From Bacteroidota bacterium (GTDB taxonomy: Bacteria; Bacteroidota; Bacteroidia; Palsa-948), in assembly GCA_016195025.1 (NCBI GenBank), contig JACQAL010000069.1, forward strand, positions 1 to 48,452: DNA of 48,452 nucleotides, given 5' to 3'. The notes under the pieces were generated by a model that worked only from the letters and a program-made list of their open reading frames with translations, searched no databases and was not told the DNA's origin. Every line of letters starts with the position of its first letter. Positions within the stretch are counted from its first letter, which is position 1. Below are positions 30,419 to 47,682 of this stretch, piece by piece. A program made the translations under genes and the position numbers.

Positions 30419-31294
30419 TTATACCTTATTTTTTCTTAGGAGGATAAAACCATAGCCGAGAATAATTCCCGCCAGCCCGCCAATGAGCAGCGACCACGAA
30501 ACTTTGGGGCTGTAAGGTTTATGGCGCACTTCAAAATCGCGGATTATGCGAATGGCTTTTTCTCCGCGAAGCAGCAGGTTGTTGTTCTCTAATTCTTCCT
30601 TATATAAGGTAAGCACCTCGCGGTAAGAACTGAGCGGGTCAAGCGGCTGCCCGAAAACAAAACCGGCAGGAGTTCCGCGCGGAACAAGATGATTGGCGAT
30701 AACTTTTTTCAGCGTGTCAAGTTCCACCAACTGCCGTTCAATTTTTGAATTCACCGAAGCAAGTGTTTGCTGGCGAATGTTTTTTTCAAACATGGCAGCA
30801 GGATTTTTTTCAAAGTAATTCAGAAGAACGGGCTTCAGCGAATCAAACAGTTTAAAATCTTTTACAAAAACTTCTATTCTGAAAGGCAGTCCGAGAACAA
30901 CCGTGTCTTTATTCTTGTAACGCTCCGCCAACTTCTCATCAAAATTACTAAAACGGATTTTTACAATTTTATCTGCTGCCTCCGCGCTGATGCCGAGCCG
31001 CTGCGCAAGCACTATGGGCATATCATCGTCCACGTATTCTTCCAAATCATTTACCATCTGCGCGCACATATCATTGGGAAGATAGTTTGAACTGAGAATA
31101 ATATCAGCAGCATACACGGGCTTTTTCAGTTTGAAGAAAGCAAAGCCGCCAGCCATTCCTATCAAAAGAAAAATAAACAGCATCAGAAGATTTCTGAAAG
31201 AAAAAAGGAAAAAACCGGATATGGATTTTTTCAGGAAAGAAAAAAAAATCTTTGCCGCTGTGAAAAGATTTATTTCGTCAGATGATTGGCTCAC
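30419..31294 (-). CDS. Wzz-like polysaccharide chain-length/co-polymerase protein
   Basis: A 291-residue inner-membrane protein with one helix near the N-terminus (about residues 38-58) and one at the C-terminus (about 265-287), with a periplasmic helical region between them. This is the topology of Wzz/PCP proteins. The opening SQSSDEINLF and the segment after the first helix (KPVYAADIILSSNYLPND) fit the Bacteroidota Wzz type. It would set chain length or help Wzy polymerise. The start is uncertain: a TTG at 31303 opens the frame, but a -7 element lies across 31301-31308, so GTG 31294 is preferred. It is divergent from the flippase gene. Confidence 0.78.
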   Translation of the reverse strand: MSQSSDEINLFTAAKIFFSFLKKSISGFFLFSFRNLLMLFIFLLIGMAGGFAFFKLKKPVYAADIILSSNYLPNDMCAQMVNDLEEYVDDDMPIVLAQRLGISAEAADKIVKIRFSNFDEKLAERYKNKDTVVLGLPFRIEVFVKDFKLFDSLKPVLLNYFEKNPAAMFEKNIRQQTLASVNSKIERQLVELDTLKKVIANHLVPRGTPAGFVFGQPLDPLSSYREVLTLYKEELENNNLLLRGEKAIRIIRDFEVRHKPYSPKVSWSLLIGGLAGIILGYGFILLRKNKV

Positions 31295-31300
31295 AGAGGG

Positions 31301-31308
31301 CAAACTTA
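31301..31308 (-). promoter_or_regulatory. -7 element of the Wzz-like gene
   Basis: The minus strand reads TAAGTTTG, an exact TAnnTTTG match. A start near 31294 would give a nearly leaderless GTG message. It sits back to back with the element at 31337-31344. Confidence 0.4.
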
Positions 31309-31336
31309 CTATTTTTTATTCAAGTTACTTTAATAG

Positions 31337-31344
31337 TAAATTTG
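31337..31344 (+). promoter_or_regulatory. -7 element for the polysaccharide operon
   Basis: TAAATTTG is an exact TAnnTTTG match 42 bases before the flippase ATG 31387. Genes from 31387 to 38022 overlap or touch, so this is the best visible promoter for that run. Confidence 0.55.
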
Positions 31345-31386
31345 TTTCGCAAATTCTACGGGTTTTTCTTCAGGATTATTTTTAAT

Positions 31387-32919
31387 ATGCTAAGAACGGA
31401 ATCATACAGGAAAGGAATTATTTATTCTTCAATAGGTAATTTTATTTCCAAATTTTTATTTTTCTTACAGGGAATTATGGTTGCTTATTATTTTGGAGCT
31501 CAATCAAAAACCGATGTATATTTCTATTCTATTTCGTTCATCACTCTAATTGCCTATTTTATAAATACACTTGATTCTTCTGTGCTTATTCCCGAATCCA
31601 TGCGCCTTTCGGAACAAAAGGGGAAAAATGAGTCAATGAAATTCCTGAATTTATTTTTTTATTTCTATCTTTTATTAGGAACATTGTTAAGTGTAGTTTT
31701 TTTTCTTGAGCCGGTAAAAATATTTTTACTTCTGTCAAAATTTGATTTAACTGTTTTAACACAAAACAACCAAATGCTTCTTTTTTCCATACCGCTTCTC
31801 ACGTTAATTATTCTTACCGGATTTTTAGGAAACATCATGGCGTCTTATAAATATTTTACTGTGCCCACAATAGTTTCCTCTGTAAATAATATTTTTGCAA
31901 TACTTTTTCTACTTTTGTTTCACAATTTATTTAACGTAACAAGTTTATACATCGGCCTGTTGATTTCCTACTCTCTCAATCTCTTTTTGCTGATTTACCT
32001 GATGAGAAAAAAACTTCAATGGAGTTTTTCTTTTAAGCTCCAAAAACTTGAGAAAAGAATTATTAATAATATTTTCTTTGCGCAAGGTGGAAATGCTTTG
32101 TCTTTGTTGTCAAGCATACTTCCCATTTATGCTTTGAGCGGATTTGGTGCTGGAGTTATTGCTTCAGTAAACTTTGGACAAAAAACTGCAGAAGCGCCCA
32201 ACCAGGGAACGGTTCAATTTTCATCAGTACTTGGAATAAAATTTAATGAACTTTATGCAAAGCACGACTACGATTCTTTAAATAAAATATTTCTTTCCTC
32301 TGTTAAATTTCTTTTGTTCGTTTGCACGCCCTTCAGCGCAATTATGTTTTTATTCAGCGATGAAATTATTTCGCTTCTTTTTCGTCATGGCGCTTTCAGC
32401 GCAGAATCTGCGGAATTGTCGTCAAAAGTCTTTAAACTGTTTGGATTTTTATTGCCATTATACGGAGTTAATACTGTGGTTGCCCGATTATTTATGGCAG
32501 GGCAAAAATTAAAAGAGGCATTTTACAACCAACTCCTGCTAAATTTACTTATCATCATCCTAACAATTATTGGAATAAAATATTTTGGAGTGGCCGGTTT
32601 TCCGTTTGCATTTCTTGCAGTGTATACATTCAGTATTCTTTCTTATTACGCGTGGATGAATTTTGTTTTTCCTTTCATTAGATACATAGAAATATTTGCT
32701 TATATAGTAGAACTTATTGTTCTAAATGGGTTAATCGGGTGGTTTATTTATTGGCTAAAAAATTTATTTTTTATTTCTTCTTTATTAAATTTAATTAGTG
32801 GCGTAAGTATATATTTTATATTGCTGCTTTTGATAAATTATTTTTTAAAAGTAAATGATGATATTGCAAAATACACTATAAAATTTTTAAGAAAAAAAAT
32901 CAGACATGAGAGCAAGTGA
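31387..32919 (+). CDS. MurJ/MviN-family oligosaccharide flippase (Wzx role)
   Basis: A 510-residue polytopic protein with about 13-14 hydrophobic helices and the MVF pattern: SYRKGIIYSSIGNFISKFLFFLQGIMVAYYFG, later KTDVYFYSISF, and FSDEIISLLFRHGAFSAESAELSSKVFKLF, the classic MurJ stretch. In this context, beside Wzz, Wzy-like and glycosyltransferase genes, it most likely flips an undecaprenyl-linked repeat unit rather than lipid II. The start at ATG 31387 excludes 35 codons of open frame that overlap the promoter. The stop overlaps the methyltransferase start by 14 bases. Confidence 0.88.
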   Translation: MLRTESYRKGIIYSSIGNFISKFLFFLQGIMVAYYFGAQSKTDVYFYSISFITLIAYFINTLDSSVLIPESMRLSEQKGKNESMKFLNLFFYFYLLLGTLLSVVFFLEPVKIFLLLSKFDLTVLTQNNQMLLFSIPLLTLIILTGFLGNIMASYKYFTVPTIVSSVNNIFAILFLLLFHNLFNVTSLYIGLLISYSLNLFLLIYLMRKKLQWSFSFKLQKLEKRIINNIFFAQGGNALSLLSSILPIYALSGFGAGVIASVNFGQKTAEAPNQGTVQFSSVLGIKFNELYAKHDYDSLNKIFLSSVKFLLFVCTPFSAIMFLFSDEIISLLFRHGAFSAESAELSSKVFKLFGFLLPLYGVNTVVARLFMAGQKLKEAFYNQLLLNLLIIILTIIGIKYFGVAGFPFAFLAVYTFSILSYYAWMNFVFPFIRYIEIFAYIVELIVLNGLIGWFIYWLKNLFFISSLLNLISGVSIYFILLLLINYFLKVNDDIAKYTIKFLRKKIRHESK

Positions 32920-33730
32920 AGAGATTCAACAAGGAAAAAGGTTTTCATTTGGAAAAAACTGGTCAGAATTTTTACAAATAGTTAATGAGGAACGAGTAAA
33001 TGAGTCCTTATCATCGCTTCAAAAATTATTAATGCTTGAAAATTTAAAAGATAAAACATTTTTAGATGTTGGCTCTGGTAATGGATTATTTAGTTTAGCT
33101 GCTAAAAAACTTGGTTCTTCTTTTATCCATTCATTTGATTATGATGAATTATCTGTTCAATGTACATTGGAAATGAAAAAAAAAAAATTTCCTGAAGATT
33201 TAAATTGGAAAATAGAATTAGGTTCTGTACTAGATACTAATTATTTAAAAACAATTCCACAGTTTGATATTGTTTACTCTTGGGGTGTATTGCATCATAC
33301 TGGAAATATGAAATTGTCATTTGAAAATATTTTAAGCAAAGTAAAGAAAGGCGGTCTTCTTTGCATTGCAATTTATAATGACCAAGGAATTATTTCCCGG
33401 TTTTGGAAACTTATAAAGCGAACTTACTGTTCAGGATTCTTGGGAAGAACATTTGTGCTTTCAGTATTTATCCCCTATTACACTATAAAATTTTCCGTTA
33501 TTGGTTTATTAAAATATGGAAATCCTATAAAATATTTTAATGTCTATAAAAAAAACAGGGGGATGTCTGTATATCATGATTGGATTGACTGGCTTGGAGG
33601 ATTACCTTTTGAAGTTGCAAAGCCAGAAACACTAAAAAAATATTTTGAAGAAAAAGGATTCATCACAACAAATATGATTATAACAAAAGGTTTGGGATGC
33701 AATCAGTTTGTATTTAAACGAGTATTATAA
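32906..33730 (+). CDS. Class I SAM-dependent methyltransferase
   Basis: A 274-residue enzyme. The SAM-binding loop is FLDVGSGNGLFSLAAKK, the acidic residue after strand 2 lies in HSFDYDEL, and motif IV is FDIVYSWGVLHHTGNM. The C-terminal part (about 160-240) is longer than a minimal methyltransferase and includes YHDWIDWLGGLPFEVAKPE, a pattern I associate with sugar or lipid methyltransferases in polysaccharide loci. The acceptor is unknown. It shares overlaps with both neighbours: 14 bases with the flippase, and ATAATG with asnB. Confidence 0.87.
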   Translation: MRASEEIQQGKRFSFGKNWSEFLQIVNEERVNESLSSLQKLLMLENLKDKTFLDVGSGNGLFSLAAKKLGSSFIHSFDYDELSVQCTLEMKKKKFPEDLNWKIELGSVLDTNYLKTIPQFDIVYSWGVLHHTGNMKLSFENILSKVKKGGLLCIAIYNDQGIISRFWKLIKRTYCSGFLGRTFVLSVFIPYYTIKFSVIGLLKYGNPIKYFNVYKKNRGMSVYHDWIDWLGGLPFEVAKPETLKKYFEEKGFITTNMIITKGLGCNQFVFKRVL

Positions 33731-35589
33731 TGTGCGGCATTGCAGGTATATTTCATTTCGATGAAAGCAGAAATGCAGACAAGTCATTACTTAAACGCAT
33801 GTCTGATTCCATTGCGCATCGAGGACCTGATGGAGAAAATTATTATTGCTCGCAAAATATTGGTCTTGCACACAGACGTCTTTCCATTATTGATTTATCT
33901 ACCGGAGACCAACCTATGTTCAACAATGAGAAAAGCATTACAATAATTTTTAACGGGGAAATTTACAACTACATTGAACTTCGAGATGAATTAAAAAAGT
34001 TAAGTCATAAGTTCAAAACAAATTCAGATACTGAAGTAATTATTCGCGCATACGAGCAGTGGGGATTTGACTGCCAGAATAAACTAAATGGCATGTGGGC
34101 TTTTTCGCTTTGGGATAATAAAAAGAAACAACTTTTTTTATCACGTGACCGTTTGGGAGAAAAACCTCTTTACTATTCAACTTTCGATAATTCATTCATT
34201 TTTGGTTCTGAAATAAAATCACTTTTAATGTATGGATGTCCTGCAACTCCTAATCTTGAGTTGACAGAACTTTATTTAAGTCTTGGTTACATTCCGGCAC
34301 CATATACTTTTTATAAAAATATTTTTAAGTTACAAGCCGGACATTACCTTGTTGTTTCAAATAATTCTATTACAGAAAAAAAATACTGGGATATGCCTAT
34401 GATTGACGAGCGCAAAATGATTTCGGATAAAAAAAATGTTTATGAAACCTATTCAACTCTCCTCAATGATTCTGTGCAAATAAGGATGCGAAGCGATGTT
34501 CCTTATGGCGCTTTTCTCAGCGGAGGGCTTGACTCTGCAAGCGTAGTTGCGCTTATGAGTAAATTGACAAGTTCGCCTGTCCGCACATTTACAATTGGTT
34601 TCAAGGAAAAATCTTTTGACGAAAGAAATCTTGCAAAGGAAGTTGCTGAAAAATTTAAAACCAATCATGAAGAGTTTGCTGTTGAGCCCGAAGTGTTCGA
34701 TGATGAGTTAAAAAAAATCATCAGCCGGTTTGATGAACCCTTTGGAGATTCTTCCGCAATTCCTACAGGATACGTTTCAAAAATTGCAGCACAAAAAGTT
34801 AAAATGGTCTTGACAGGCGATGGTGGCGATGAAGTATTATCCGGGTACGAATCAAACAGAGTAGAGAAATTTGCAGAGCAATATCAACATTTGCCACACA
34901 TCATACGAAGAGCCATGCCCGGTGCAGTTTCTGTGCTGAGCAATTTTTTTTCCGGAAACATCCGGTATAAGTTGAATCGCATTTCAAAGGCACTATCATT
35001 TTCAAATAAAACTTTTGATGAACGCCTTATGGCAAAATCATGGTGCAAACCTGAATTGGCAGAAAAATTAATTCAGCATTCTGAAAAACAGATTAAGCTT
35101 TCTGATTTTATTCACAATCTTTTTGAAAAATATCCTGTAAAAAATCCTTTCTATCAATTAATGTATTTTCAGTTTAAAGTTTTGCTGCCCGATGATTTTC
35201 TTACGAAAGTTGACCGCATGAGCATGGCTTACTCTCTTGAAACACGTGTTCCTTTTTTAGATTATCGCTTGATTGAATTTATGATGCATGTTCACCGCGA
35301 TGTAAAAATGAACGGCTATGAAAGAAAAAGTGTTTTAAGAAATACAATCGGAAAGCAACTCCCCTCTTCTCTTCTTCGCGCACCCAAGCGAGGATTCAGT
35401 ATTCCTCTCCGTGAATGGTTCAAGGATAAAGCATTTGAACAAAAACTTCAGTCGCTTTATAATTCCGATTTTGGATTATCTTCTTCTCTTATAAAAGAAT
35501 TAGTTTCCCAAAATGCAAGCGGTAAAGAAGATTTAGGAAATTTGTTGTGGATGCTTTTTATTTATAAGAAATGGATTGAAAAATCATGA
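33730..35589 (+). CDS. asnB: Asparagine synthase (glutamine-hydrolysing) family amidotransferase
   Basis: A 619-residue two-domain enzyme. The class II glutaminase domain starts with the catalytic cysteine at position 2 (MCGIAGIF) and contains IAHRGPDGE and NGEIYNY. The synthase domain has the PP-loop FLSGGLDSASVVAL and LTGDGGDEVLSGYE. Paralogues in polysaccharide loci often amidate sugar acids rather than aspartate, so the true acceptor could be a uronic acid in this glycan. Length fits AsnB (about 550-640). The stop overlaps the next gene by 4 bases. Confidence 0.92.
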   Translation: MCGIAGIFHFDESRNADKSLLKRMSDSIAHRGPDGENYYCSQNIGLAHRRLSIIDLSTGDQPMFNNEKSITIIFNGEIYNYIELRDELKKLSHKFKTNSDTEVIIRAYEQWGFDCQNKLNGMWAFSLWDNKKKQLFLSRDRLGEKPLYYSTFDNSFIFGSEIKSLLMYGCPATPNLELTELYLSLGYIPAPYTFYKNIFKLQAGHYLVVSNNSITEKKYWDMPMIDERKMISDKKNVYETYSTLLNDSVQIRMRSDVPYGAFLSGGLDSASVVALMSKLTSSPVRTFTIGFKEKSFDERNLAKEVAEKFKTNHEEFAVEPEVFDDELKKIISRFDEPFGDSSAIPTGYVSKIAAQKVKMVLTGDGGDEVLSGYESNRVEKFAEQYQHLPHIIRRAMPGAVSVLSNFFSGNIRYKLNRISKALSFSNKTFDERLMAKSWCKPELAEKLIQHSEKQIKLSDFIHNLFEKYPVKNPFYQLMYFQFKVLLPDDFLTKVDRMSMAYSLETRVPFLDYRLIEFMMHVHRDVKMNGYERKSVLRNTIGKQLPSSLLRAPKRGFSIPLREWFKDKAFEQKLQSLYNSDFGLSSSLIKELVSQNASGKEDLGNLLWMLFIYKKWIEKS

Positions 35590-36920
35590 AACTGAAATTT
35601 TCTTTCCTTCACATTGGAATTTATTTATTAATTCTTTCGCTCTTTCAGGGTAGTTTCATTATTCAATATTCTGCTTTGTTTATTTTCATTCTGATTTTTC
35701 TTTTTACGCAACAACCTGTAATTAAAAAAAATATTTTTCTTTTTATTCCTGTCCTGCTTATTTTAGTTGCTTTTATTTCTTATATCTATAATTACATTAA
35801 TGAAAGTGCCGATGGTTATACGTTTTTATTCTGGATTTTTTCATATCTGCCGCCAATCATATTAATGTGGATCATTATTTCATGCGCAGAGAGAATAGAT
35901 TTTTTCAATGCGTATAAATTTTATAAATGGTTGGTTTATTTTCAATCTTTCTTACTGATTATTTCTGCAATTCAAAATCATAAATTTATTGTAGGCGACC
36001 CGGCCAAAGGCACAGTGGGTGACGCTAATTGGGTTGCCTTTCATATTTGTGTTGTACTTTTGTATGAAATAGTCCGGATAATTATTTTATCAAAACAAGG
36101 AAAAATTTCTTTCACTAAAAATTTTTCTTCGTTTGCAGAAATATTATATTTTCTTGTTGTGTTGCTTATTCCTGAATCAACTGCAAATCTTGGATTCATG
36201 ATAATAATAATCGGATTTATTTTTTTCAATGAATATCTTTTACGTTATGTAAATTTTTTCAGAATAGTCCTTTTTATTTTAATTTCTATTTGCATAATTT
36301 TTTTTGTTTCCAAAACGTATGTATATGAACGGCTGGAAGATGCTGTTGTTAAACTTCAAAAAACCGAGATAGAAAAAAATCCATATTTATCAAAAGTCAA
36401 GATTTATAAAAATCTTTTTAGCGGTGAACTTTACAGTCAAACAAATTGGCTGCTCGGTTCAGGACCGGCTACTTTCACCAGTCGTAGTTCCGTTATGCGC
36501 ATGCCCGATGAACGAGTAAATGAATTTCCCATTGAACTTCCCTATTTCAAAAGCGAACTTTTTAAAAAATATATTTCCCCCATTTATGCCAATTGGAGAA
36601 AAACAAGAGAGCAATATGGAAATTTTGCTTCGCCACAAACAACAATAATTTCTGTATCGGTTGAACTTGGCCTGGCTGGAATTTTTATTTTCATTCTGCT
36701 TTTTTATTTTATTTACAGAAATAATAAAATCAAACATTATAGTAATGAATTTTTAAACTTGAAGAAATTTGTTCTTTACGTTACATTATTCTATTTTACA
36801 AATTTGTTTTATTTGAATTTCTGGGAATATCCTATTATTACTTTCACATATATCGTTTTTATATTTTCAATTTTGTACAATGAAAATCTTTCAACCACAA
36901 GAATAGTTTATGAGCATTGA
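35586..36920 (+). CDS. O-antigen polymerase/ligase-like membrane protein (Wzy or WaaL role)
   Basis: A 444-residue polytopic protein with about ten hydrophobic segments and a large soluble loop (about residues 245-360) between late helices. That is the layout of Wzy/WaaL proteins. The loop includes LGSGPATFTSRSS and the end reads SPQTTIISVSVELGLAGIFIFILLF, matching the family's terminal ELGLxGxxLF helix. It cannot be told from sequence whether it polymerises repeats or ligates chains; a second such gene lies at 42768. It is coupled to asnB and overlaps the next gene by 11 bases. Confidence 0.8.
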   Translation: MKLKFSFLHIGIYLLILSLFQGSFIIQYSALFIFILIFLFTQQPVIKKNIFLFIPVLLILVAFISYIYNYINESADGYTFLFWIFSYLPPIILMWIIISCAERIDFFNAYKFYKWLVYFQSFLLIISAIQNHKFIVGDPAKGTVGDANWVAFHICVVLLYEIVRIIILSKQGKISFTKNFSSFAEILYFLVVLLIPESTANLGFMIIIIGFIFFNEYLLRYVNFFRIVLFILISICIIFFVSKTYVYERLEDAVVKLQKTEIEKNPYLSKVKIYKNLFSGELYSQTNWLLGSGPATFTSRSSVMRMPDERVNEFPIELPYFKSELFKKYISPIYANWRKTREQYGNFASPQTTIISVSVELGLAGIFIFILLFYFIYRNNKIKHYSNEFLNLKKFVLYVTLFYFTNLFYLNFWEYPIITFTYIVFIFSILYNENLSTTRIVYEH

Positions 36921-38022
36921 GAGGCCAATTCTGATTCTTATTCAATCCACCGACTCCCCTATTCAGGAACATCTTAGTAAAGGAATTTGGTCCCGGCAGG
37001 AATTTACTTTAAAGCAATATGCAAAAAAGTTTTTAGTTTACTATTACACCTGCGATTCAAAAAATTTTCAATCAATAATGCCTGAAGGTGTGCTTCATAA
37101 AAAGCGGGAAATAACTTCTTCCGTATTTGGCATTCGGCATATTTTATATTATTTTTTTTTACTACTCAGTTCTTTCAAGTGGAGAAAACATAATTGTGTA
37201 GTGAGAATTATTGGTGTGAATGTTCCCGTAATTCCCTTATTAAAATGCATTTCAAAAAAATATTTTATAATCAGCTACCAGTTTGACTGGACATACGGAA
37301 TGAAAAAAGATTATAAGGGAATAAAGCCACTCGTTTCTGCCTTTGTACAAAGATGGGTAATTAATTCTGCCGACCATCTTATTTGCACCACTCAATGGCT
37401 GGCAGACATTGCAAAAACGAGATACGGGAAAAAAAATATTACTATAATTCCAAATTATGTCAATACAGAAATTTTCAAACCCTCTGCTGAAAAGAAAAAA
37501 CAAATTGTATTTGCCGGAAGATTGCACTGGTCAAAAGGGATAGATATTTTAATTAATGCCTTTAAAAGGTTTTCTAAAATAAAAGATGATTACAAACTAT
37601 TGATTCTTGGAATTGGTGAAGAAGAAAAAAGATTAAAACAGTCAACAATAAGCAATAAAAATATTTTTTTTACCGGTGCTCTTTCTAATAATAAAGTGGC
37701 AAAAATTTTCAGCGAATCTGAGATTTTTGTTTTACCCACAATAAATATGGAAGGCCATCCTAAAGCTCTTGTGGAAGCAATGGCTTCCAGATGCAAGTGC
37801 ATTGCATCAAATGTTCCCGGGAATAACCATGTATTAAAAGAAAGCAACTCAGAATATTTTCTTTTCGAAACCAAAAACCCAATCGATTTATGTAATAAAC
37901 TTATCTTTGCTACTCAAAATCATTTTTCTCACCAATACGATTATGCCTTAAAAATGTACTCTGCCTATACGTGTTTTGATAAAGAGTTTCAAATTCTTAG
38001 CGAAAAGAGGATAACATTCTGA
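36910..38022 (+). CDS. Glycosyltransferase, GT4 family
   Basis: A 370-residue GT-B enzyme. The C-terminal nucleotide-sugar half shows ITIIPNYVNTEIFKP, VFAGRLHWSKGIDILINAF, IFFTGALSNNKVAKIFSESE and the EX7E region EGHPKALVEAMASRCKCIAS. The N-terminal acceptor half has several hydrophobic helices, suggesting membrane association. It adds one sugar to the lipid-linked repeat; donor and linkage unknown. It overlaps the preceding membrane gene by 11 bases, and a 55-bp gap follows. Confidence 0.9.
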   Translation: MSIERPILILIQSTDSPIQEHLSKGIWSRQEFTLKQYAKKFLVYYYTCDSKNFQSIMPEGVLHKKREITSSVFGIRHILYYFFLLLSSFKWRKHNCVVRIIGVNVPVIPLLKCISKKYFIISYQFDWTYGMKKDYKGIKPLVSAFVQRWVINSADHLICTTQWLADIAKTRYGKKNITIIPNYVNTEIFKPSAEKKKQIVFAGRLHWSKGIDILINAFKRFSKIKDDYKLLILGIGEEEKRLKQSTISNKNIFFTGALSNNKVAKIFSESEIFVLPTINMEGHPKALVEAMASRCKCIASNVPGNNHVLKESNSEYFLFETKNPIDLCNKLIFATQNHFSHQYDYALKMYSAYTCFDKEFQILSEKRITF

Positions 38023-38077: not shown

Positions 38078-41000
38078 ATGAAAAACATTTCCCATTTTTT
38101 ACTTTTTTTATTGTTTTTTTGCATTTGTATTCAAAATTCTGCCCAGGAAATTATTCGTGATACAAATATTCAGCTTATCACACCTTCTGCAAATTTTTCA
38201 TTTAACATGAATGGTTTTCTTGATGGAGAAAATACTCTGACAAGAAATCCTTATACGAAAGTTTTTGAGCCGATGCTTCAAATAAAAATGACAAACAATG
38301 GAAATAAAAAAATATATACTCCAAGATTAGTGTTCAATAACCGCAAAAGATGGTTTACTATTGACGATATGCGCAATGAATGTTTTGCTGGAGCAGTTAC
38401 AGAAAAAGATAAAGCCCTTTCTCTCTGGAAATTTTTCAGGGATAACCGAGTACATGACTTAGGTCCTGACATGACTGACAATATCAGTGATCCTGTAAAG
38501 CTTTTGGGAGTATATGGATACGGGTTATGTTACAACACAAATTATTCAATGTGTTTTCTTGCTCAAACTTATAGTGCCTTCCCCTATAAAGGTTATGCGC
38601 CTCAGGGGTTGCACTATGTTTCGGAATTAAACTTTGGAAGCCGCTATGAGTATATTGATAGCGATATAGAAACCTTTTACCTGAAAAATGATAATACTAC
38701 TCTTGCCAACTCAAAAGAAATTTTTAGTGATAGAACTCTTATTCGCAGAACCAAGCATTATGGAATAGAAAATAATTTTAAACCAGACATAAATAATTAC
38801 GTGGCTAGTTTATATTATAAAAACGATTCGGCTTATTATTTTGGTTATATGGCGGAAAATTCCTATCACAAATTAGATTTTAATTTACGCCCGGGAGAAT
38901 CAATACTCTATGACTGGACAATGCCTTTGCAAATACACAACGATAATTTTATTTCCAATACTCAAAAAATTATTTACAATTCTCCTTATTCACTTTCCTC
39001 TCATCAAGATGCAATCAGCACTTTATTGCTGAATAATAATCCTCAAACAAACAGTGCGAAAAATTCTGTTGCAGCTAATGGAGAATTTTATTTCAAAACA
39101 AATTTTTATAATGCACCTCTTTCTGAGTTGGTAGATTATTATTCTAATCTTAGTGTCGATTCCTCTAACGAAGGAGGAATTTACTTAGAAACTGTTTCAA
39201 CGCCAGGAATCATAGTAATAAAGGTAACTTCTCCTTTTGTAATTGTCAATGGAGAAATTGCCGGAAAATTTGAACGCTACAATAGCAATGACAGTATTAA
39301 TATTTTTTTCTCAAAAGATTCTTCACTTTGGAAAGAAGTAACACATGTTAATCTGACAGGAAAATTTAACCAAACTTTTAATTTATCTTCCTTTATTGAT
39401 GGAAGTAATTCCAATGCACTTTACAACTATTATCTCAAATTTTTACTTTCCTCGCAAGATTCCATTCAATCTCTTCGAATAGATTCGCTTGAAATTCGTT
39501 CACAGTTTCAGGTTAGCAAATTTTTCCTTCCTCAGTTAAAACTTGGTTCAAATCAAATAGAATATTCAGATACTAATTCAAATGGCAGAGATTTGAATAT
39601 TGAAATTCGCTGGAAAGAATCCACTTTAAACACTCCGCCAGATCAGATTAATTCACCATTATTTCCGCAAGATACTTCTTCTGTTAATAATTTGAAATTT
39701 ACTTTTTCCTGGACTAAACCTTCTGACCAGGATGGAGATGCAATTGTAAATTATGAATTTCAGTTGAGCGACCGTTCAGATATGAAATTTCCCTTGTCCC
39801 CAACTTTTGAAACATATATTAGTGAAACGGATAGTATCAATGTTAATCCTTCTTTCAATATTCCCCAATTCGGTTTGCTGAACGATGGTACAAAATATTA
39901 CTGGAGAGTTCGGGCAAAAGACAATCGCGGAGCGTGGGGGAATTGGAGTCCGGTTTGGTCTTTTGTTCCTCATGGTGTGATGCCTCCTTTAAATGTTGCA
40001 TCAACTATAACGAAGGACAGCATATTAATTTCCTGGCAGCCAAACACAGGAGAAAATCCTGCCTATTACGAAATTCATGGAAGCAATGAATGGCTTGGTT
40101 TTTCTCCGGATAGTTCTACCTTAATTGGAAAAACTTTTTCAACTTTTTACTCATTGCCCTTGAATGCCGACAATAAATTATTCTATCGCATAATTGCTGT
40201 TTCGCAAACTGACGAACAAAGCTCTCCTTCAGATGTTTTGGAATTGCCTTATCCACATTCGCAAATAAAAATTGATTCTGTCTTTCCGGAAAAATTGTAT
40301 TTGCTTACTAATACTCCTGTTTCATTAAATTATTTTAGAGTTAATCCTTCAACATATTCAATCGTAAATCATCAAGATGATTTTATAACCACAATTCTTT
40401 ATGCCCCTTGGTGGATTTCATCTTCTGGAAATAGTGCTTCGGGTTTTGCAGATTCATCTATTTCATTTGGCATATTGGCAGATTCCTCAAAGGGAAAAAT
40501 TTCAGAGAAGTTTATTTCAACAACAACTAATCAATCACAAACAATTATCTTTTATTTGCCTTCAGCATATAAAAATTCCTCGCCCAACATTAGCAACATT
40601 ACTCCTATGGCAATTGCCGGAATGCCTTTCAAAGATTCTATTTTAATTTCAGATTTAGATTTGCCTTATGGAGATTCGCTGATTTCTATTTCGATTTCTA
40701 ATACGCCCGCATGGATGCAAACAAATATTTCGGACAATAAAATTCTTTTATCCGGAGCACCAGCTTTTTCCGATACCGGAAATTCAATGATTGTAATTTC
40801 TGCAATGGATAGATTCCATAGTCAGGAAATAAAAAATGATTCTTTCTCAGTCCTAATTCCTCTTAAAGTTTCTTTTGCTCACAGCAATGGAAAATGCACT
40901 TCACAAGTTTCATTTTTCGACTCTTCAATACTTCATGCACCGGACGACACCATTGTTTCTTGGAATTGGAATTTTGGCGATGGAAAAACAAGTTTCATAC

Positions 41001-41632
41001 AGAATCCAATTCATACGTATGACCCTTCGGGAAATTATCTTACTACTTTGAATGTTACAACCAATTACGGTTTCAATAATGCTTTTCAAAATCCTGTTCA
41101 GGTTTCTTCTCCTCCTTCTACATATTTCACAACTCAAATGAACTGTTCCGCTGATTGGGTTTGCTTTTTCGACAACTCAACAAGTAACGGAGGAAATATA
41201 ATTTCATGGCTTTGGAACTTTGGAGACGGTGACACAAGCAATCAACAAAATCCTTCTCATCTTTATGCATCTTCGGGCACTTATTCAATTGTGCTCACTG
41301 TAAGTTCTGATTCGGACTGCGCGAGCAATTTTGCCGATACTATAAATGTTTTCTTATCTGTTACTTCTGCCCCATCATTGACTCATACTAATGACTTTGA
41401 AATTTCCCCAAATCCAGTTAGCAACTATTTCACTCTAAAACTGTATGATGAAATGGCTTCGGGAATTCTTCGGATTTATAATTCGGTTGGCCAACTGGTA
41501 TATTTTGAACAGATTCATGATGGAGAATTGAAAAAAGAAATTCATATTGAAAATTCTTCTCAGGGAATTTATCATTTGTACATTCGTACAGCAGAAAAGC
41601 AGTGGGAAACAAAATTTCAAAAACTTAAATAA
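38078..41632 (+). CDS. T9SS-exported transglutaminase-like protein with FN3-like and PKD domains
   Basis: An 1184-residue exported protein. The signal peptide is residues 1-23 (ending NSAQ). Residues about 95-260 fit a transglutaminase-like cysteine domain: GYGLCYNTNY with Cys151, GLHYVSEL with His179, YEYIDSDIETFYLKND with Asp194 or Asp196, in the right order and spacing. A long beta region follows, then an FN3-like pair around residues 530-720 (FSWTKPSDQDGDAIVNYEFQ; ILISWQPNTGENPAYYEIHG). An Ig-like/cadherin-like domain follows, then two PKD domains near 945-1100 (NWNFGDGKTS, WNFGDGDTS). The chain ends in a T9SS type A sorting domain (FEISPNPVSNYF to the end). It lies inside the glycan locus between two glycosyltransferases and may act on, or attach to, the surface polymer; that is inference. 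Confidence 0.85.
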   Translation: MKNISHFLLFLLFFCICIQNSAQEIIRDTNIQLITPSANFSFNMNGFLDGENTLTRNPYTKVFEPMLQIKMTNNGNKKIYTPRLVFNNRKRWFTIDDMRNECFAGAVTEKDKALSLWKFFRDNRVHDLGPDMTDNISDPVKLLGVYGYGLCYNTNYSMCFLAQTYSAFPYKGYAPQGLHYVSELNFGSRYEYIDSDIETFYLKNDNTTLANSKEIFSDRTLIRRTKHYGIENNFKPDINNYVASLYYKNDSAYYFGYMAENSYHKLDFNLRPGESILYDWTMPLQIHNDNFISNTQKIIYNSPYSLSSHQDAISTLLLNNNPQTNSAKNSVAANGEFYFKTNFYNAPLSELVDYYSNLSVDSSNEGGIYLETVSTPGIIVIKVTSPFVIVNGEIAGKFERYNSNDSINIFFSKDSSLWKEVTHVNLTGKFNQTFNLSSFIDGSNSNALYNYYLKFLLSSQDSIQSLRIDSLEIRSQFQVSKFFLPQLKLGSNQIEYSDTNSNGRDLNIEIRWKESTLNTPPDQINSPLFPQDTSSVNNLKFTFSWTKPSDQDGDAIVNYEFQLSDRSDMKFPLSPTFETYISETDSINVNPSFNIPQFGLLNDGTKYYWRVRAKDNRGAWGNWSPVWSFVPHGVMPPLNVASTITKDSILISWQPNTGENPAYYEIHGSNEWLGFSPDSSTLIGKTFSTFYSLPLNADNKLFYRIIAVSQTDEQSSPSDVLELPYPHSQIKIDSVFPEKLYLLTNTPVSLNYFRVNPSTYSIVNHQDDFITTILYAPWWISSSGNSASGFADSSISFGILADSSKGKISEKFISTTTNQSQTIIFYLPSAYKNSSPNISNITPMAIAGMPFKDSILISDLDLPYGDSLISISISNTPAWMQTNISDNKILLSGAPAFSDTGNSMIVISAMDRFHSQEIKNDSFSVLIPLKVSFAHSNGKCTSQVSFFDSSILHAPDDTIVSWNWNFGDGKTSFIQNPIHTYDPSGNYLTTLNVTTNYGFNNAFQNPVQVSSPPSTYFTTQMNCSADWVCFFDNSTSNGGNIISWLWNFGDGDTSNQQNPSHLYASSGTYSIVLTVSSDSDCASNFADTINVFLSVTSAPSLTHTNDFEISPNPVSNYFTLKLYDEMASGILRIYNSVGQLVYFEQIHDGELKKEIHIENSSQGIYHLYIRTAEKQWETKFQKLK

Positions 41633-41667: not shown

Positions 41668-42771
41668 GTGAATAAAAAGATAAGGTTAGTTGTTATCGGA
41701 CCCAGAGGTTTTCCCAATGTGCAAGGAGGAATAGAAAGTTTTTCGGAAAAATTATATCCTCATCTCATTGAAAAAGGATACTGCATTCAGGTTTTTTCTA
41801 TTAAACGCTATGCCAGCCATAAAGAATGGAATGGAATAAAGTTTATTCATATTCCTACTCCATCATCTAAAATTTTTGAAAGGCCGCTATATAATTTTTT
41901 ATCCACTATTTATTGCATTTTCAAACGCCCGGATTTAATTCATATTCACAGTATCGCTTCAGGAACTTTTATTTTCTTTTTGAAATTATTCGGACTAAAA
42001 ATTATTGCAAGGTATAATTCGCAAGATTATTTACATGAAAAATGGAATGTATTTGGAAAAATAATATTAAAAAATTCTGAGCACCAATTTTTATTGACAG
42101 ATTATATTATTACTAACAATAAAACATACCTTAAACATCTGCAAGCCAAAGGAAGAAAAAATAACATAACGCTTATTCCAAACGGAGTTGAAAAAAATAG
42201 CAGAGAAAAATATAATGGATTGCTTCAAGAATATTTTCCTAATATCAAAGAAAAATTTATTCTGTTTGCCGGAAGAATTACTCCCGAAAAAAATATTGAA
42301 ACATTAATTAATTCTTTTTTTCTTTTAAATCCTAAAGAAACAAGCTTAATAATTGCAGGTGGCGCTGCACATAATGATAATTACTTTGTAGAATTAAAAA
42401 ATAAATATTCAGATAAAAGAATTCTTTTTACCGGCAAACTTTATCGTGAAAAATTAAATTGTCTTTTTGCAAACTGTTCTTTGTTTGTTATTCCGTCCTT
42501 TTCAGAGGGAACTCCCAATGTACTTCTTGAAGCTTTGAGTTTTAACTGCAAAATACTTGCAAGTAAAATTCCAGCTCATCTTGATTTTTCTTTTCAGGAA
42601 GAAACGTATTTTAATCCAAATGATGTTAGCGAACTTTCTCAAAGAATAAATAACAAACTGCTAAATGATAATTTAGAAAATTATGAAGGGCTGCTTCAGA
42701 AACACCACTGGCTAAATATTGTTGAGCAAATACATCATATCAATCAGAAAGTTCTTAATATAGAATCATGA
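41668..42771 (+). CDS. Glycosyltransferase, GT4 family (DUF1972-type N-terminus)
   Basis: A 367-residue GT-B enzyme starting at GTG. The N-terminus RLVVIGPRGFPNVQGGIESF is the typical DUF1972 opening seen in rhamnosyl- and other GT4 transferases. The C-terminal half has ITLIPNGVEKN, FILFAGRITPEKNIETLINSF, RILFTGKLYREKL and EGTPNVLLEALSFNCKILAS with the EX7E motif. Donor and acceptor are unknown. It follows the T9SS protein by 35 bases and overlaps the next gene by 4 bases. Confidence 0.9.
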   Translation: MNKKIRLVVIGPRGFPNVQGGIESFSEKLYPHLIEKGYCIQVFSIKRYASHKEWNGIKFIHIPTPSSKIFERPLYNFLSTIYCIFKRPDLIHIHSIASGTFIFFLKLFGLKIIARYNSQDYLHEKWNVFGKIILKNSEHQFLLTDYIITNNKTYLKHLQAKGRKNNITLIPNGVEKNSREKYNGLLQEYFPNIKEKFILFAGRITPEKNIETLINSFFLLNPKETSLIIAGGAAHNDNYFVELKNKYSDKRILFTGKLYREKLNCLFANCSLFVIPSFSEGTPNVLLEALSFNCKILASKIPAHLDFSFQEETYFNPNDVSELSQRINNKLLNDNLENYEGLLQKHHWLNIVEQIHHINQKVLNIES

Positions 42772-44048
42772 TTGAAGCATTCAGAAAAAATAAAGACAAA
42801 TTTTTTTTTTACTGCCTTGCTTTAAGCATTGTCTCTCTCCCTTTTTCACTAAAGCTGAATAGTATTTCCATTATTATACTTTTTATATATTGGATTCTTA
42901 AAGATGGTTTAAAAGAAAAACTTGGCAACATTACCAGCCCGCTCTTTTATCTTTTCATCAGCTTATATTTTTTTCATGTAATTGGCATGCTCTGGACTTC
43001 AAACATTGAACATGGAAAATTTGAATTAGAAAAAAAATTGAGTTTGCTGATTTTCCCAATTATCATCGGAACTTCAAAAAAAATTTCCTTTGATGAAATA
43101 AAAAAAATATTAAACTATTTTGCTTGCTCCTGTACAATTGTTTCACTCATATGCCTTGCCTATGCATTTTACCGAGCAATGTCATCTGGAAATTTTTATG
43201 AAATAAATCCTGTGAGCAACTATGCTACGCATTATTTTTTTTATGAAGGCCTGTCGGAAATCTTTATTCATCCGATTTATTTTTCGGCTTTCATTTCTTT
43301 TTCGGCATTTGTAGTTTTAAAAAATATTCTGAAACTCCATGATTATTTTTCTAGAAAAAATATTTTACATTTTATCTGGCTGGCATATTTAATTGTTTTT
43401 CTTTTTCTTCTCTCTTCGCGAACAATGACCATTTCCTTTTTTTTAATTTCTGCATTCTATATTTTATATTTTTTTTTAAAAAACAAAAAAATATTTTTAG
43501 GCATTTCTATCACATCAGTTATGATTGCGATTTTTATCTCCTCCATTATTTTTATCCCAACAATTCACGAACGCTTTTCGGAAATATTTACTTCTTCCTA
43601 TTCTTTTAATAATAATCCCGAAACAAATAAAAATCTTTCGGGAAAACTTGATGATATTCAAATGCGTTTTGCGAAATGGTTTTTTACAATTAAAACAGGA
43701 AAAAAAACATGGATTTTGGGAACTGGAACAGGAGATGATGAAGATGAATTAATGAAAACATATCTTGAAAATAATTTTATGGAAGGTTATGTTCCGCAGT
43801 ATAATTCACATAATCAATTTCTGCAAACATGGCTTGGCTTAGGCGTAATCGGATTAGGAATTTTATTACTTAATTTACTTGCATCTTTTTATTTATCGCT
43901 CAAAAGAAAAAATATTATATACTTCTTTTTTATTTTTTTAATTACTGCATTCTGTTTTACTGAATCAATACTTTGCCGCCAGCATGGAGTAGTATTTTAT
44001 TCATTTTTTAATTCACTGTTTGCTTTCCATTTTTTTAAAGACAAATAA
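42768..44048 (+). CDS. O-antigen ligase/polymerase family membrane protein (Wzy_C)
   Basis: A 426-residue polytopic protein with about ten to twelve hydrophobic helices. It shows the Wzy_C hallmark in the late periplasmic loop: LGTGTGDDEDELMKTYLE, then YNSHNQFLQTWLGLGVIGLG. It is the better family match of the two polymerase/ligase-like genes in the locus, so one plausibly polymerises and the other ligates. The ATGA overlap with the preceding glycosyltransferase indicates coupling. The DNA is very AT-rich. Confidence 0.86.
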   Translation: MIEAFRKNKDKFFFYCLALSIVSLPFSLKLNSISIIILFIYWILKDGLKEKLGNITSPLFYLFISLYFFHVIGMLWTSNIEHGKFELEKKLSLLIFPIIIGTSKKISFDEIKKILNYFACSCTIVSLICLAYAFYRAMSSGNFYEINPVSNYATHYFFYEGLSEIFIHPIYFSAFISFSAFVVLKNILKLHDYFSRKNILHFIWLAYLIVFLFLLSSRTMTISFFLISAFYILYFFLKNKKIFLGISITSVMIAIFISSIIFIPTIHERFSEIFTSSYSFNNNPETNKNLSGKLDDIQMRFAKWFFTIKTGKKTWILGTGTGDDEDELMKTYLENNFMEGYVPQYNSHNQFLQTWLGLGVIGLGILLLNLLASFYLSLKRKNIIYFFFIFLITAFCFTESILCRQHGVVFYSFFNSLFAFHFFKDK

Positions 44049-44097
44049 TAGCGCAAATATTTTTCTTTCAACAAAAATCTGATATTTGTATTTCATT

Positions 44098-45477
44098 ATG
44101 CCCGGATTGTATTCCAGATTTATTAAGCCGATTCATTTTATAGGTGATGTTCTGGTCATCAATCTTTCATTCTTATTCTCCTATTACTTTACGTTCGGAA
44201 GGTTTGAAAATTTTTTCGGGCAACATTATCTTGGATTAATTTTGTTCTACAACATTGCATGGGTTGGAACAGTTTATTTTCTTGATGTATATAATTTGTA
44301 CCGTGTAACAGGATTTCTGAGCATCGCGTTAAATCTTTTCCGACATATATTTTTTTATTTTATACTTATTATTGCATTCAACGGGCTTGCAACCATTCTA
44401 TCTTATTCACGCCATCAGATTCTTGTATCATTTGCGTTTATTACTGCAGGAATAAGCGTGTGGAGATTTTCTACGTACATTCTTCTTCGGCTTTACCGCA
44501 AGAGCGGCTACAATTACCGCAAAGTGGTGATTGCCGGTTTCAATGATACTGCGCACGACCTGCATGATTTTTTTGTTTCGCACCCTGAGCATGGATATAA
44601 ATTCATGGGAATGTTTGACGATGAGGTGAATCATCTGCGCGTAAAAGGAAACCTGAAAGAGATGGAAAAATTTACTGTGGAAAATGAAGTGGATGAAATT
44701 TATTGCATACTCCCGCGCTTGTCTTCAGAACAAGTTTATGCTATCACTGAATTTGCCGACAATAATTTTATGCGCGTGAAAATGATTCCCGGACTGATGG
44801 AATTTCCTTACCGGAAATTCAAACTCGACTTGTATGATTTTCTTCCGGTAATTTCTGTCCGGAATATTCCGCTTGATGATGGCTTCAATAAATTTTTCAA
44901 GCGCACATTTGATATTATTTTTTCTTTTCTCGTTTGCACGGTGTTGCTCTCGTGGCTTCTTCCAATTCTTGCAATCGTGATTAAACTCGATTCAAAAGGT
45001 CCAATCTTTTTCAAACAAAAAAGAACCGGCCTGAACAACCGCGAGTTCTGGTGCCTGAAACTTCGCTCAATGCATGTGAATGAAGATGCGCATAGCATGC
45101 AGGCATCTTCAGATGACCCGCGAATAACAAGTGCGGGAAAATTGCTGCGTAAATTTAATCTCGATGAACTTCCGCAGTTCATCAATGTTTTTATTGGAGA
45201 TATGTCAATAGTTGGACCGCGCCCGCACATGCTGAAACATACGGAAGAATATTCGCAACTCATAGAAAAATATATGCTGAGGCATTTTATCAAGCCGGGA
45301 ATTACCGGGCTTTCACAGGCGGTGGGCTTGCGCGGAGAAACTAAAGAAACGAATTTGATGAAGCGAAGAATTAAAACGGATTTATATTATATAGAGAACT
45401 GGTCATTTTTCCTTGACATTCGCATAATCTTTCTGACTATTCTGAATATTTTTCGTGGTGACAAAAAAGCCGTATAA
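44098..45477 (+). CDS. Undecaprenyl-phosphate glucose phosphotransferase (WcaJ/WbaP-type)
   Basis: A 459-residue polyprenyl-phosphate hexose-1-phosphate transferase that primes repeat-unit synthesis. It has four or five N-terminal helices, a central CoA/NAD-binding-like domain (YRKVVIAGFNDTAHDL, about residues 135-245), then a membrane re-entrant helix and the catalytic domain: FFKRTFDIIFSF, GPIFFKQKRTGLNN, FWCLKLRSMH, LRKFNLDELPQFINVFIGDM and SIVGPRPHM. The D-E pair in NLDELPQ is catalytic in the family. ATG 44098 is preferred over a TTG 12 bases upstream because GATATTTG, a near TAnnTTTG, overlaps it. Codon use looks less AT-rich than in the preceding genes. Confidence 0.93.
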   Translation: MPGLYSRFIKPIHFIGDVLVINLSFLFSYYFTFGRFENFFGQHYLGLILFYNIAWVGTVYFLDVYNLYRVTGFLSIALNLFRHIFFYFILIIAFNGLATILSYSRHQILVSFAFITAGISVWRFSTYILLRLYRKSGYNYRKVVIAGFNDTAHDLHDFFVSHPEHGYKFMGMFDDEVNHLRVKGNLKEMEKFTVENEVDEIYCILPRLSSEQVYAITEFADNNFMRVKMIPGLMEFPYRKFKLDLYDFLPVISVRNIPLDDGFNKFFKRTFDIIFSFLVCTVLLSWLLPILAIVIKLDSKGPIFFKQKRTGLNNREFWCLKLRSMHVNEDAHSMQASSDDPRITSAGKLLRKFNLDELPQFINVFIGDMSIVGPRPHMLKHTEEYSQLIEKYMLRHFIKPGITGLSQAVGLRGETKETNLMKRRIKTDLYYIENWSFFLDIRIIFLTILNIFRGDKKAV

Positions 45478-46093: not shown

Positions 46094-46166
46094 GATCCCG
46101 TAGCTCAGCCGGTAGAGCATTACACTTTTAATGTAGGGGTCCTGGGTTCAAATCCCAGCGGGATCA
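46094..46166 (+). tRNA. tRNA-Lys (TTT anticodon)
   Basis: A full cloverleaf can be folded: acceptor GATCCCG/CGGGATC, D stem GCTC/GAGC, anticodon stem TTACA/TGTAG with loop CTTTTAA (anticodon TTT), T arm CTGGG-TTCAAAT-CCCAG and discriminator A at 46166. CCA is not fully encoded (ACCTT follows). The recombinase gene on the other strand ends inside it, at 46120. Confidence 0.96.
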
Positions 46167-47682
46167 CCTTATGGGATTGAGGCGAAAAACACGCCTCAGT
46201 CCCATTTTTATTTACACACAACTCTTTGATTTGTGGGCAGATGTGCTCCAATGCTTCGTTCATTTTTTCCGTTCGACATTTCATTTCTGAAAAATACAAC
46301 TTTTCAGGAAACAACGAACCGACAAGGGCTTGTTTGGTGGTTACATCCCCTAACTTCCAATAATCAGTCAGGTGTTGAAAGGTGTTTAAGCCAAACTCAA
46401 TGTTAACTTCATAATCAGAATCAACGACAGGAAGTTGCATATATTCCCTTTCCATTCGTTCAATTTCCGGTTCGGTTTTAATTTTTATTTCTCGGTACTC
46501 ATCCATTTTCATTTCTCCATCAAGCATCAACACTTGTGCATTGTTTAAGCGGGTGCGGAGTTTTTCAATTTCAACTTTAATTCTTTTTGACCTTAACGAT
46601 TTGTCCAATTGGTTCTCTTTGAAAATTTGCTCCACCGCCACCTGCAAATAATCCACTGATACTTCATTGAATTTTATTTGCTCCAACCATCCTAAAAAAA
46701 CCATATTTGCTTCGGGCGCTTTTATTCTTTCAGGGCAACCCGGTTTGCAGTGATAATAAAAGTGTTTAATTCCGCTTCCACCGGTTGATGCGCTTCCGCT
46801 AAGTTTCTTTCCGCACTTGCTGCAAAATAAAAAACCCCGAAGGGGCAATTCCTCTCTTCGGGTGTTTTTTGTCGGGACATTTCGTTTTCTTCCGTCCAGA
46901 AAATCCTGAACCCGATAAAAAGTGTTTTCTGAAATGAGCGGTTCGTGAATTCCTTTCACGGTTTTTTCTCCTTCATCTTTATAGGGAGGAATGTAAATCA
47001 ATCCGCAGTAAATAGGATTGCGAAGCATATTCCAAAAATTATTTATGCTGCATTTGAATCCCTTTTCTTTCGCCATCCGAAAAATATCAACCACAGTGTG
47101 ACACCCTTTTTCAATTTCCTCAAAACACCATTTCACAATTTTTGCATCATCGCTCGGCACAATCACTTTTCTGTTTTCTGCGTTCGTGATATTTTTATAT
47201 CCTTTGGGAGCCATTGCCATACATCTTCCTTCTTTCATTGCCCTGCGCATTCCAACTATTACATTTAACGCTCTGCGGTCATTCTCCACTTCAGGAGCGG
47301 CAAGGTAAAATGCCAGCATAATTTTATTTTCAGGAATGTTTAAGTCAAGTGGTTGTTCAATCGCTTGCGGTTCCACTCCAAGACGATTCAACTGATTAAT
47401 CATTCCATACGCATCGCCAGCATTGCGGGAGAACCTGTCCCATTTAGTAAAGATTAGTAAATCAACCATTCCTTTTTTCTTTTTCAGGGTTGCGAGAAGT
47501 TTGGTGAACTCGGGGCGGTCAAAAGTTTTTGCCGAATGGTCTTCCCTGAAGATTGCAATCACTTTAATGTTTTGCAGTGCGCAATAGTTTGTGAGTCGTT
47601 CCTGCTGATGAGCCAAACTGTATCCTTTGTCAGCTTGCTCGTCTGTGCTCACTCTGATGTAGAGGTATGCATTCTTTCTCAT
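46120..47682 (-). CDS. Large serine recombinase with 3' end inside tRNA-Lys
   Basis: A 520-residue serine recombinase. The resolvase domain opens YLYIRVSTDEQ with nucleophile Ser12 and has FTKWDRFSRNAGDAYG around the catalytic arginines. A recombinase domain follows (PKGYKNI, GCHTVVDIFRMAKEKG, NNFWNMLRNPIYCGLI). A zinc ribbon (FLFCSKCGKKLSG, HCKPGCPERI) and a coiled-coil C-terminal part come next. The last ~14 residues (VIPLGFEPRTPTLKV) are the reverse reading of the tRNA-Lys gene, so the functional protein may end earlier in evolutionary terms even though the stop lies there. It probably mediates integration of the element that starts here. The first 53 bases overlap the small upstream gene. 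Confidence 0.92.
   Translation of the reverse strand: MRKNAYLYIRVSTDEQADKGYSLAHQQERLTNYCALQNIKVIAIFREDHSAKTFDRPEFTKLLATLKKKKGMVDLLIFTKWDRFSRNAGDAYGMINQLNRLGVEPQAIEQPLDLNIPENKIMLAFYLAAPEVENDRRALNVIVGMRRAMKEGRCMAMAPKGYKNITNAENRKVIVPSDDAKIVKWCFEEIEKGCHTVVDIFRMAKEKGFKCSINNFWNMLRNPIYCGLIYIPPYKDEGEKTVKGIHEPLISENTFYRVQDFLDGRKRNVPTKNTRREELPLRGFLFCSKCGKKLSGSASTGGSGIKHFYYHCKPGCPERIKAPEANMVFLGWLEQIKFNEVSVDYLQVAVEQIFKENQLDKSLRSKRIKVEIEKLRTRLNNAQVLMLDGEMKMDEYREIKIKTEPEIERMEREYMQLPVVDSDYEVNIEFGLNTFQHLTDYWKLGDVTTKQALVGSLFPEKLYFSEMKCRTEKMNEALEHICPQIKELCVNKNGTEACFSPQSHKVIPLGFEPRTPTLKV
46171..46210 (+). terminator. Intrinsic terminator of tRNA-Lys
   Basis: ATGGGATTGAGGCG (46171-46184) pairs with CGCCTCAGTCCCAT (46192-46205) over 14 bp with a single G-T wobble, loop AAAAACA, followed by TTTTTA. 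It lies antisense within the 3' part of the recombinase gene. Confidence 0.85.

Follow-up and report, generated by a model that had tools for sequence, protein, structure and literature searches.

The window analysed here is a 48,452-nt stretch of DNA from a Bacteroidota bacterium. At 38078 to 41632 it carries the gene of a giant secreted protein, the sixth of nine genes on the same strand, with intergenic gaps of -14 to +55 bp. The nine genes are:

31282..32919 (+), MurJ-type flippase with a Wzx-like role (Pfam)
32906..33730 (+), SAM methyltransferase (Pfam)
33730..35589 (+), AsnB-like amidotransferase (best NCBIfam model TIGR03108; above the TIGR01536 cut-off)
35586..36920 (+), polytopic membrane protein, possibly Wzy-like (no family match)
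36910..38022 (+), GT4 glycosyltransferase (Pfam)
38078..41632 (+), giant secreted protein of 1184 aa, with signal peptide, transglutaminase-like head, beta region, FN3-like, Ig-like and two PKD domains, and T9SS C-terminal domain
41668..42771 (+), GT4 glycosyltransferase, DUF1972-like, a relative of the glycosyltransferase adjoining the giant gene in locus L107 (below)
42768..44048 (+), Wzy_C/O-antigen ligase-type membrane protein (Pfam)
44086..45477 (+), WcaJ undecaprenyl-phosphate glucose phosphotransferase (TIGR03023, 439 bits, above cut-off)

A sequence-only reading of this DNA had placed the protein within a glycan operon. The nine closely packed same-strand genes bear this out, and the coordinates and strand of the open reading frame were exact. 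The GC content of the operon genes was 0.28-0.385, versus 0.407 over the window's first 30 kb; such a shift is usual for exchangeable glycan loci. The AsnB-like protein scored 592 bits against TIGR03108 (WbpS-like AsnB), below the curated cut-off of 816.9 bits. No uronate-forming dehydrogenase was found within the operon, and two were found elsewhere in the genome. A promoter and terminator scan gave signals at or below chance.

Three other genes of the window were noted. Just past the 3' end of the operon lies a large serine recombinase gene (46120-47682, minus strand; Resolvase, Recombinase and Zn_ribbon_recom domains), which possibly serves mobility or switching of the glycan locus. A divergent gene beside the operon (30422-31303, minus strand) gave a GNVR match that was weak and under the cut-off (E 7e-4), and is possibly a Wzz-type chain-length protein. 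The third (215-2902, minus strand) encodes an 896-aa protein that includes a Peptidase_S74 domain (endosialidase chaperone), usual in tail-spike-like proteins.

Within the giant protein, the following features were located, all on the plus strand:

38078..38143 (+), Sec signal peptide, residues 1-22 (MKNISHFLLFLLFFCICIQNSA, then Q), read directly from the sequence
38300..38947 (+), transglutaminase-like core, about residues 75-290 (profile searches and alignments)
38528..38530 (+), codon of Cys151, the putative nucleophile (invariant in 16/16 and 20/20 aligned sequences)
38612..38614 (+), codon of His179 (invariant in 16/16 and 20/20)
38657..38659 (+), codon of Asp194 (invariant in 16/16 and 20/20)
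38975..39637 (+), post-core region, about residues 300-520, probably beta-rich (co-linear with two giant relatives by BLASTP; aligns with lipoprotein L031)
39680..39964 (+), FN3/Ig_Rha78A_N-like domain, residues 535-629 (Pfam, above cut-off; giant-relative alignment)
40568..40852 (+), Ig/cadherin-like region of He_PIG type, about residues 831-925 (alignment to the He_PIG regions in giant relatives)
40910..41350 (+), two PKD domains, about residues 945-1091 (PKD_4 1.8e-30, two stretches; PDB collagenase PKD matches)
41402..41614 (+), T9SS type A sorting domain, residues 1109-1179 (Por_Secre_tail 4.7e-8 and TIGR04183 24.9 bits, both above cut-off)

Predicted cleavage of the signal peptide would leave an N-terminal Gln, matching the Q-rule described for Bacteroidetes signal peptides (PMC5837995). 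A second FN3-like stretch was found at about residues 634-728. The He_PIG-type region of the window protein (about 831-925) gave no Pfam match of its own. The FN3-like domains, PKD domains and T9SS signal that had been read in this open reading frame were recovered as Pfam matches above cut-offs, and NCBIfam agreed on the sorting domain. Assignment as T9SS cargo was further matched by PorU-like C25 proteins encoded in the same genome.

The head was less readily placed. Residues 24-330 gave no Pfam match even at E<=10, and the gathering cut-off of PF01841 was not reached. When the full N-terminal region served as query, no relative reached E<=1e-3 among 395 genomes of the phylum, 60 close relatives, a genome-contig collection and viral contigs; protein queries against the viral contigs likewise gave no match. 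The sole source of leads was a core query (residues 75-330) run at a loose limit, which returned weak matches in the same class. An alignment of six sequences, used as a profile against 395 genomes of the class, then gave 12 strong relatives besides the window protein, all of them stand-alone lipoproteins or small secreted proteins. Profile searches yielded 15 strong relatives in all, and C, H and D were unvarying in every one.

Residues 151, 179, 194 and 196 of the window protein are C, H, D and D, and the triad stands in the order Cys-His-Asp of the PF01841 clan. C151, H179 and D194 were invariant in 16/16 aligned proteins. In a wider alignment of 20 sequences they were the only invariant columns, and most other positions changed. 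Asp196, on the other hand, varied among the relatives, which identified Asp194 as the triad acid. Thus the proposed triad of Cys151, His179 and Asp194/196 held for the first three residues and failed for Asp196. The window protein has Tyr190 in place of a Trp found in the lipoprotein relatives, and it lacks both the Trp and the second acid that are common near the active site.

When Pfam Transglut_core was compared with 13 family members, ten were matched at E<=1, two of them above the curated cut-off, and the window protein was unmatched. Against the PDB, a strict 13-member profile found only peptide N-glycanase, an enzyme of transglutaminase fold (E 0.022), aligned over the catalytic motifs. 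The top four PDB matches of a wider 20-member profile, which takes in more canonical relatives, were all of transglutaminase fold (3isr, 6e-7; 4xz7, 0.001; peptide N-glycanase, 0.087; 6g49, 0.1). The family profile thus aligns with the PF01841 superfamily, which includes peptide N-glycanase and TgpA, over the motifs that hold the catalytic C, H and D; the window protein differs from that superfamily in having no Pfam match of its own and in the joining of its head to a T9SS secretion tail.

AlphaFold2 models of the head, built from one and from three input sequences, reached pLDDT of 32 and 36, and the Foldseek matches obtained from them were meaningless. Because these models were uninformative, the fold claim rests on sequence. 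Membership of the head in the transglutaminase-like superfamily is supported via transitive homology only. The earlier description of the head as transglutaminase-like, which Pfam does not show for the window protein taken singly, was recovered by way of its relatives, with family profiles that reach Transglut_core and PDB enzymes. Another protein of the window (28758-30344, minus strand, 529 aa), weakly like the family profile, was ruled out by hhalign profile comparison; it had no Pfam or NCBIfam match.

The surroundings of the 12 relatives were surveyed with Pfam. The 136 genes within 7 kb included Radical_SAM (14), AsnB (9), GT2 (8), epimerases (7) and UbiA (7), together with methyltransferases. 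The control set comprised 134 genes, taken from 12 arbitrarily chosen regions in these genomes; AsnB, GT2 and Radical_SAM were absent from the 25 families listed for it. AsnB was present within 10 kb of 10/13 class-level loci of the family, versus 15/117 control GT1 clusters that lack a transglutaminase-like gene (Fisher p 2e-6), the control clusters being drawn from the 150 glycosyltransferase places listed out of a larger number. With sister loci merged, AsnB lay within that distance of 7/10 loci (p 2e-4, same controls among the places listed). The window locus had been chosen for its context; when it was left out, the count was 9/12.

AsnB was not obligatory, since L034, L067 and L069 had none within 10 kb, although the neighbourhood of L067 does include one when widened to about 15 kb. 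The transglutaminase-like gene comes after a Wzm/Wzt-like ABC exporter in L034 and L070. The prediction that homologues would accompany polysaccharide loci was borne out by this non-random clustering with glycan-assembly and export genes and with AsnB. The family is thus a recurrent one in Bacteroidota glycan loci, so far uncurated.

Two further observations were made on these neighbourhoods. The lipoprotein loci L032, L033, L065 and L067, when pooled, were rich in Radical_SAM/SPASM, UbiA, GDSL and Cupin_8, which suggests an unusual modification system. In another genome (G584, contig C263; L079:4562-5404, minus strand), a 281-aa transglutaminase-like protein is flanked by two AsnB genes, one of whose products is 57% identical to the window AsnB.

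A phylum-wide profile search and a profile search in the class of genome G014 uncovered three long relatives in another class of the phylum, L099 (1662 aa), L107 (2796 aa) and L109 (2420 aa). Starting at the head and taking in both FN3-like regions, L107 and L109 were co-linear with the window protein (BLASTP E 9e-47 and 4e-58). L099 matched it mainly in the head (E 7e-4) and showed the same overall plan. All three keep the Cys-His-Asp triad, and each has He_PIG repeats along with a tail of T9SS type. For the tail, Por_Secre_tail was above cut-off only in L107 and below it in L099; the L109 tail gave a sub-threshold FlgD_ig match and, by eye, the motif NYPNPFNP. In a search of plasmids with a giant relative, all matches among the five listed lay outside the head, in the Ig-repeat part.

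A WcaJ-type gene directly adjoins the giant gene in 3/3 of these loci. AsnB was found within 10 kb in L107 and in L099, where the region is cut by the contig end; L109 lies on a short contig. The four genomes with the giant form have only 3-6 Bac_transf genes each. The window protein is a surface-exported, giant form of the transglutaminase-like enzymes of glycan loci.

In the tree, the window protein grouped with L107 and L109 (97/94), and L099 fell with the lipoprotein forms. This placement of L099 requires two origins of the giant T9SS form. From these sequences the T9SS-exported giants seem to have arisen at least twice, the placement being provisional and the window protein a long branch.

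Because the gene, with its conserved triad, sits in a glycan operon and distant relatives sit in similar operons, usually beside AsnB, the enzyme probably modifies or cross-links the surface coat made by its own operon. AsnB relatives such as WbpS, WbqG and PGN_1234 convert uronic acids to uronamides, and in P. gingivalis a uronamide made by an AsnB relative is the sugar joining T9SS cargo to A-LPS (PMC7468200). Our preferred reading, tentative and of somewhat less than even confidence, is that the protein is a catalytically competent surface thiol enzyme of transglutaminase fold, with amide groups in the polysaccharide of its own operon as its target.

The following course could then be envisaged. 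The AsnB-like enzyme, if it has the specificity of its relatives, would amidate a sugar carboxylate in the cytoplasm, turning a uronic acid into a uronamide. WcaJ would start the repeat unit, with flipping and polymerisation after it. Sec and then the T9SS would carry the enzyme to the cell surface, where it is presumed to be anchored, perhaps to a surface lipopolysaccharide, with the FN3, Ig and PKD tail as a spacer between head and T9SS anchor. There, Cys151 would attack the amide to form an acyl-enzyme. Water would be the likelier agent to resolve this intermediate, giving a WbmE-like deamidation; an amine in its place would lead to cross-linking to protein or glycan. That the substrate is a glycan amide, like the choice between hydrolysis and transfer, we infer from the neighbouring genes and from precedent. 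Against the preferred reading stand the score of the window AsnB below the TIGR03108 cut-off, the lack of a uronate-forming dehydrogenase in the operon, the loci without AsnB within 10 kb, Tyr190 in place of the Trp of lipoprotein relatives, and the uninformative structure models.

The precedent is WbmE of Bordetella bronchiseptica, described (King et al. 2009, as cited in PMC3507681) as a periplasmic protein with a transglutaminase domain that deamidates uronamide-rich O chains; its gene is placed in the wbm locus (PMC12243275). By its published description, WbmE shares with the window protein the transglutaminase domain, the Cys-His-Asp triad, an O-antigen locus and, on our reading, action after assembly on uronamide-rich chains. 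The window locus is an O-antigen/EPS-type locus with an amidotransferase. WbmE is periplasmic, whereas the window protein is exported to the surface by the T9SS. To our knowledge, WbmE has no large Ig/PKD tail. By analogy, the window enzyme would most likely be a surface amidase or transamidase, a cell-surface counterpart of this uronamide deamidase.

A pairing of a transglutaminase-fold thiol enzyme with an AsnB homologue is also known from lasso peptides, in which a transglutaminase-like protease (B) works with an AsnB-like cyclase (C). Loci of the window type differ in being glycan loci with glycosyltransferases. The lasso-peptide analogy was set aside, the AsnBs scoring far below the lasso cyclase cut-off.

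Other functions were weighed. We consider it unlikely that the enzyme limits or releases the coat as a cysteine protease or isopeptidase of transglutaminase-like type, with surface or export proteins belonging to the glycan system as its substrates. HvyA of Caulobacter crescentus (BTLCP family) is the model: it is exported, belongs to a capsule-export locus and controls the coat, its transglutaminase-like triad being needed to prevent capsulation (PMC4241560). The relatives directly after Wzm/Wzt-type ABC exporter genes would suit such a role. HvyA, however, is small and periplasmic and has no T9SS tail, whereas the window protein carries a surface-export signal and was unmatched by the Pfam cysteine-protease families; a protease would also leave the AsnB association unexplained.

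It is rather unlikely that the protein is a true transglutaminase of the extracellular matrix, cross-linking proteins or joining protein to glycan there, its Ig/PKD tail filling out the structure. The conserved triad would suit this role, and the giant Ig-repeat architectures of relatives, up to 2796 aa, have the look of matrix proteins, but most relatives in the class of the window are stand-alone lipoproteins or small secreted proteins, for which matrix cross-linking is less natural. Quite unlikely, in our view, is a surface transamidase that draws its acyl donor from the uronamide in its own polysaccharide and links the coat covalently to surface proteins through their amines.

A non-catalytic, glycan-binding head that holds the protein on its own polysaccharide appears improbable. 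FN3 and PKD domains are frequent companions of binding functions, and the window head lacks the common Trp and second acid; on the other hand, C, H and D were the sole invariant columns in 20 sequences, and neutral drift would spare no such exact set. That an unrelated T9SS cargo came to lie in a glycan operon by chance is very improbable: the genome does encode dozens of PKD/T9SS proteins and the head domain was found in 0/6 congeners, but giant relatives of another class occupy the same type of locus beside WcaJ despite the few Bac_transf genes in each genome.

No paper describing the combination of T9SS and glycan locus was found among open-licence papers. If the transamidase should prove true, it would be a new way to attach or cross-link bacterial polysaccharide, one operon making both the sugar amide and the enzyme consuming it. 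More generally, the preferred reading, a surface enzyme acting on glycan amides, gives a testable prediction on the modification or tethering of polysaccharide after export. It concerns a transglutaminase-like family of glycan loci tied to AsnB-type amidotransferases, and it bears on the connection between T9SS cargo and surface glycans.
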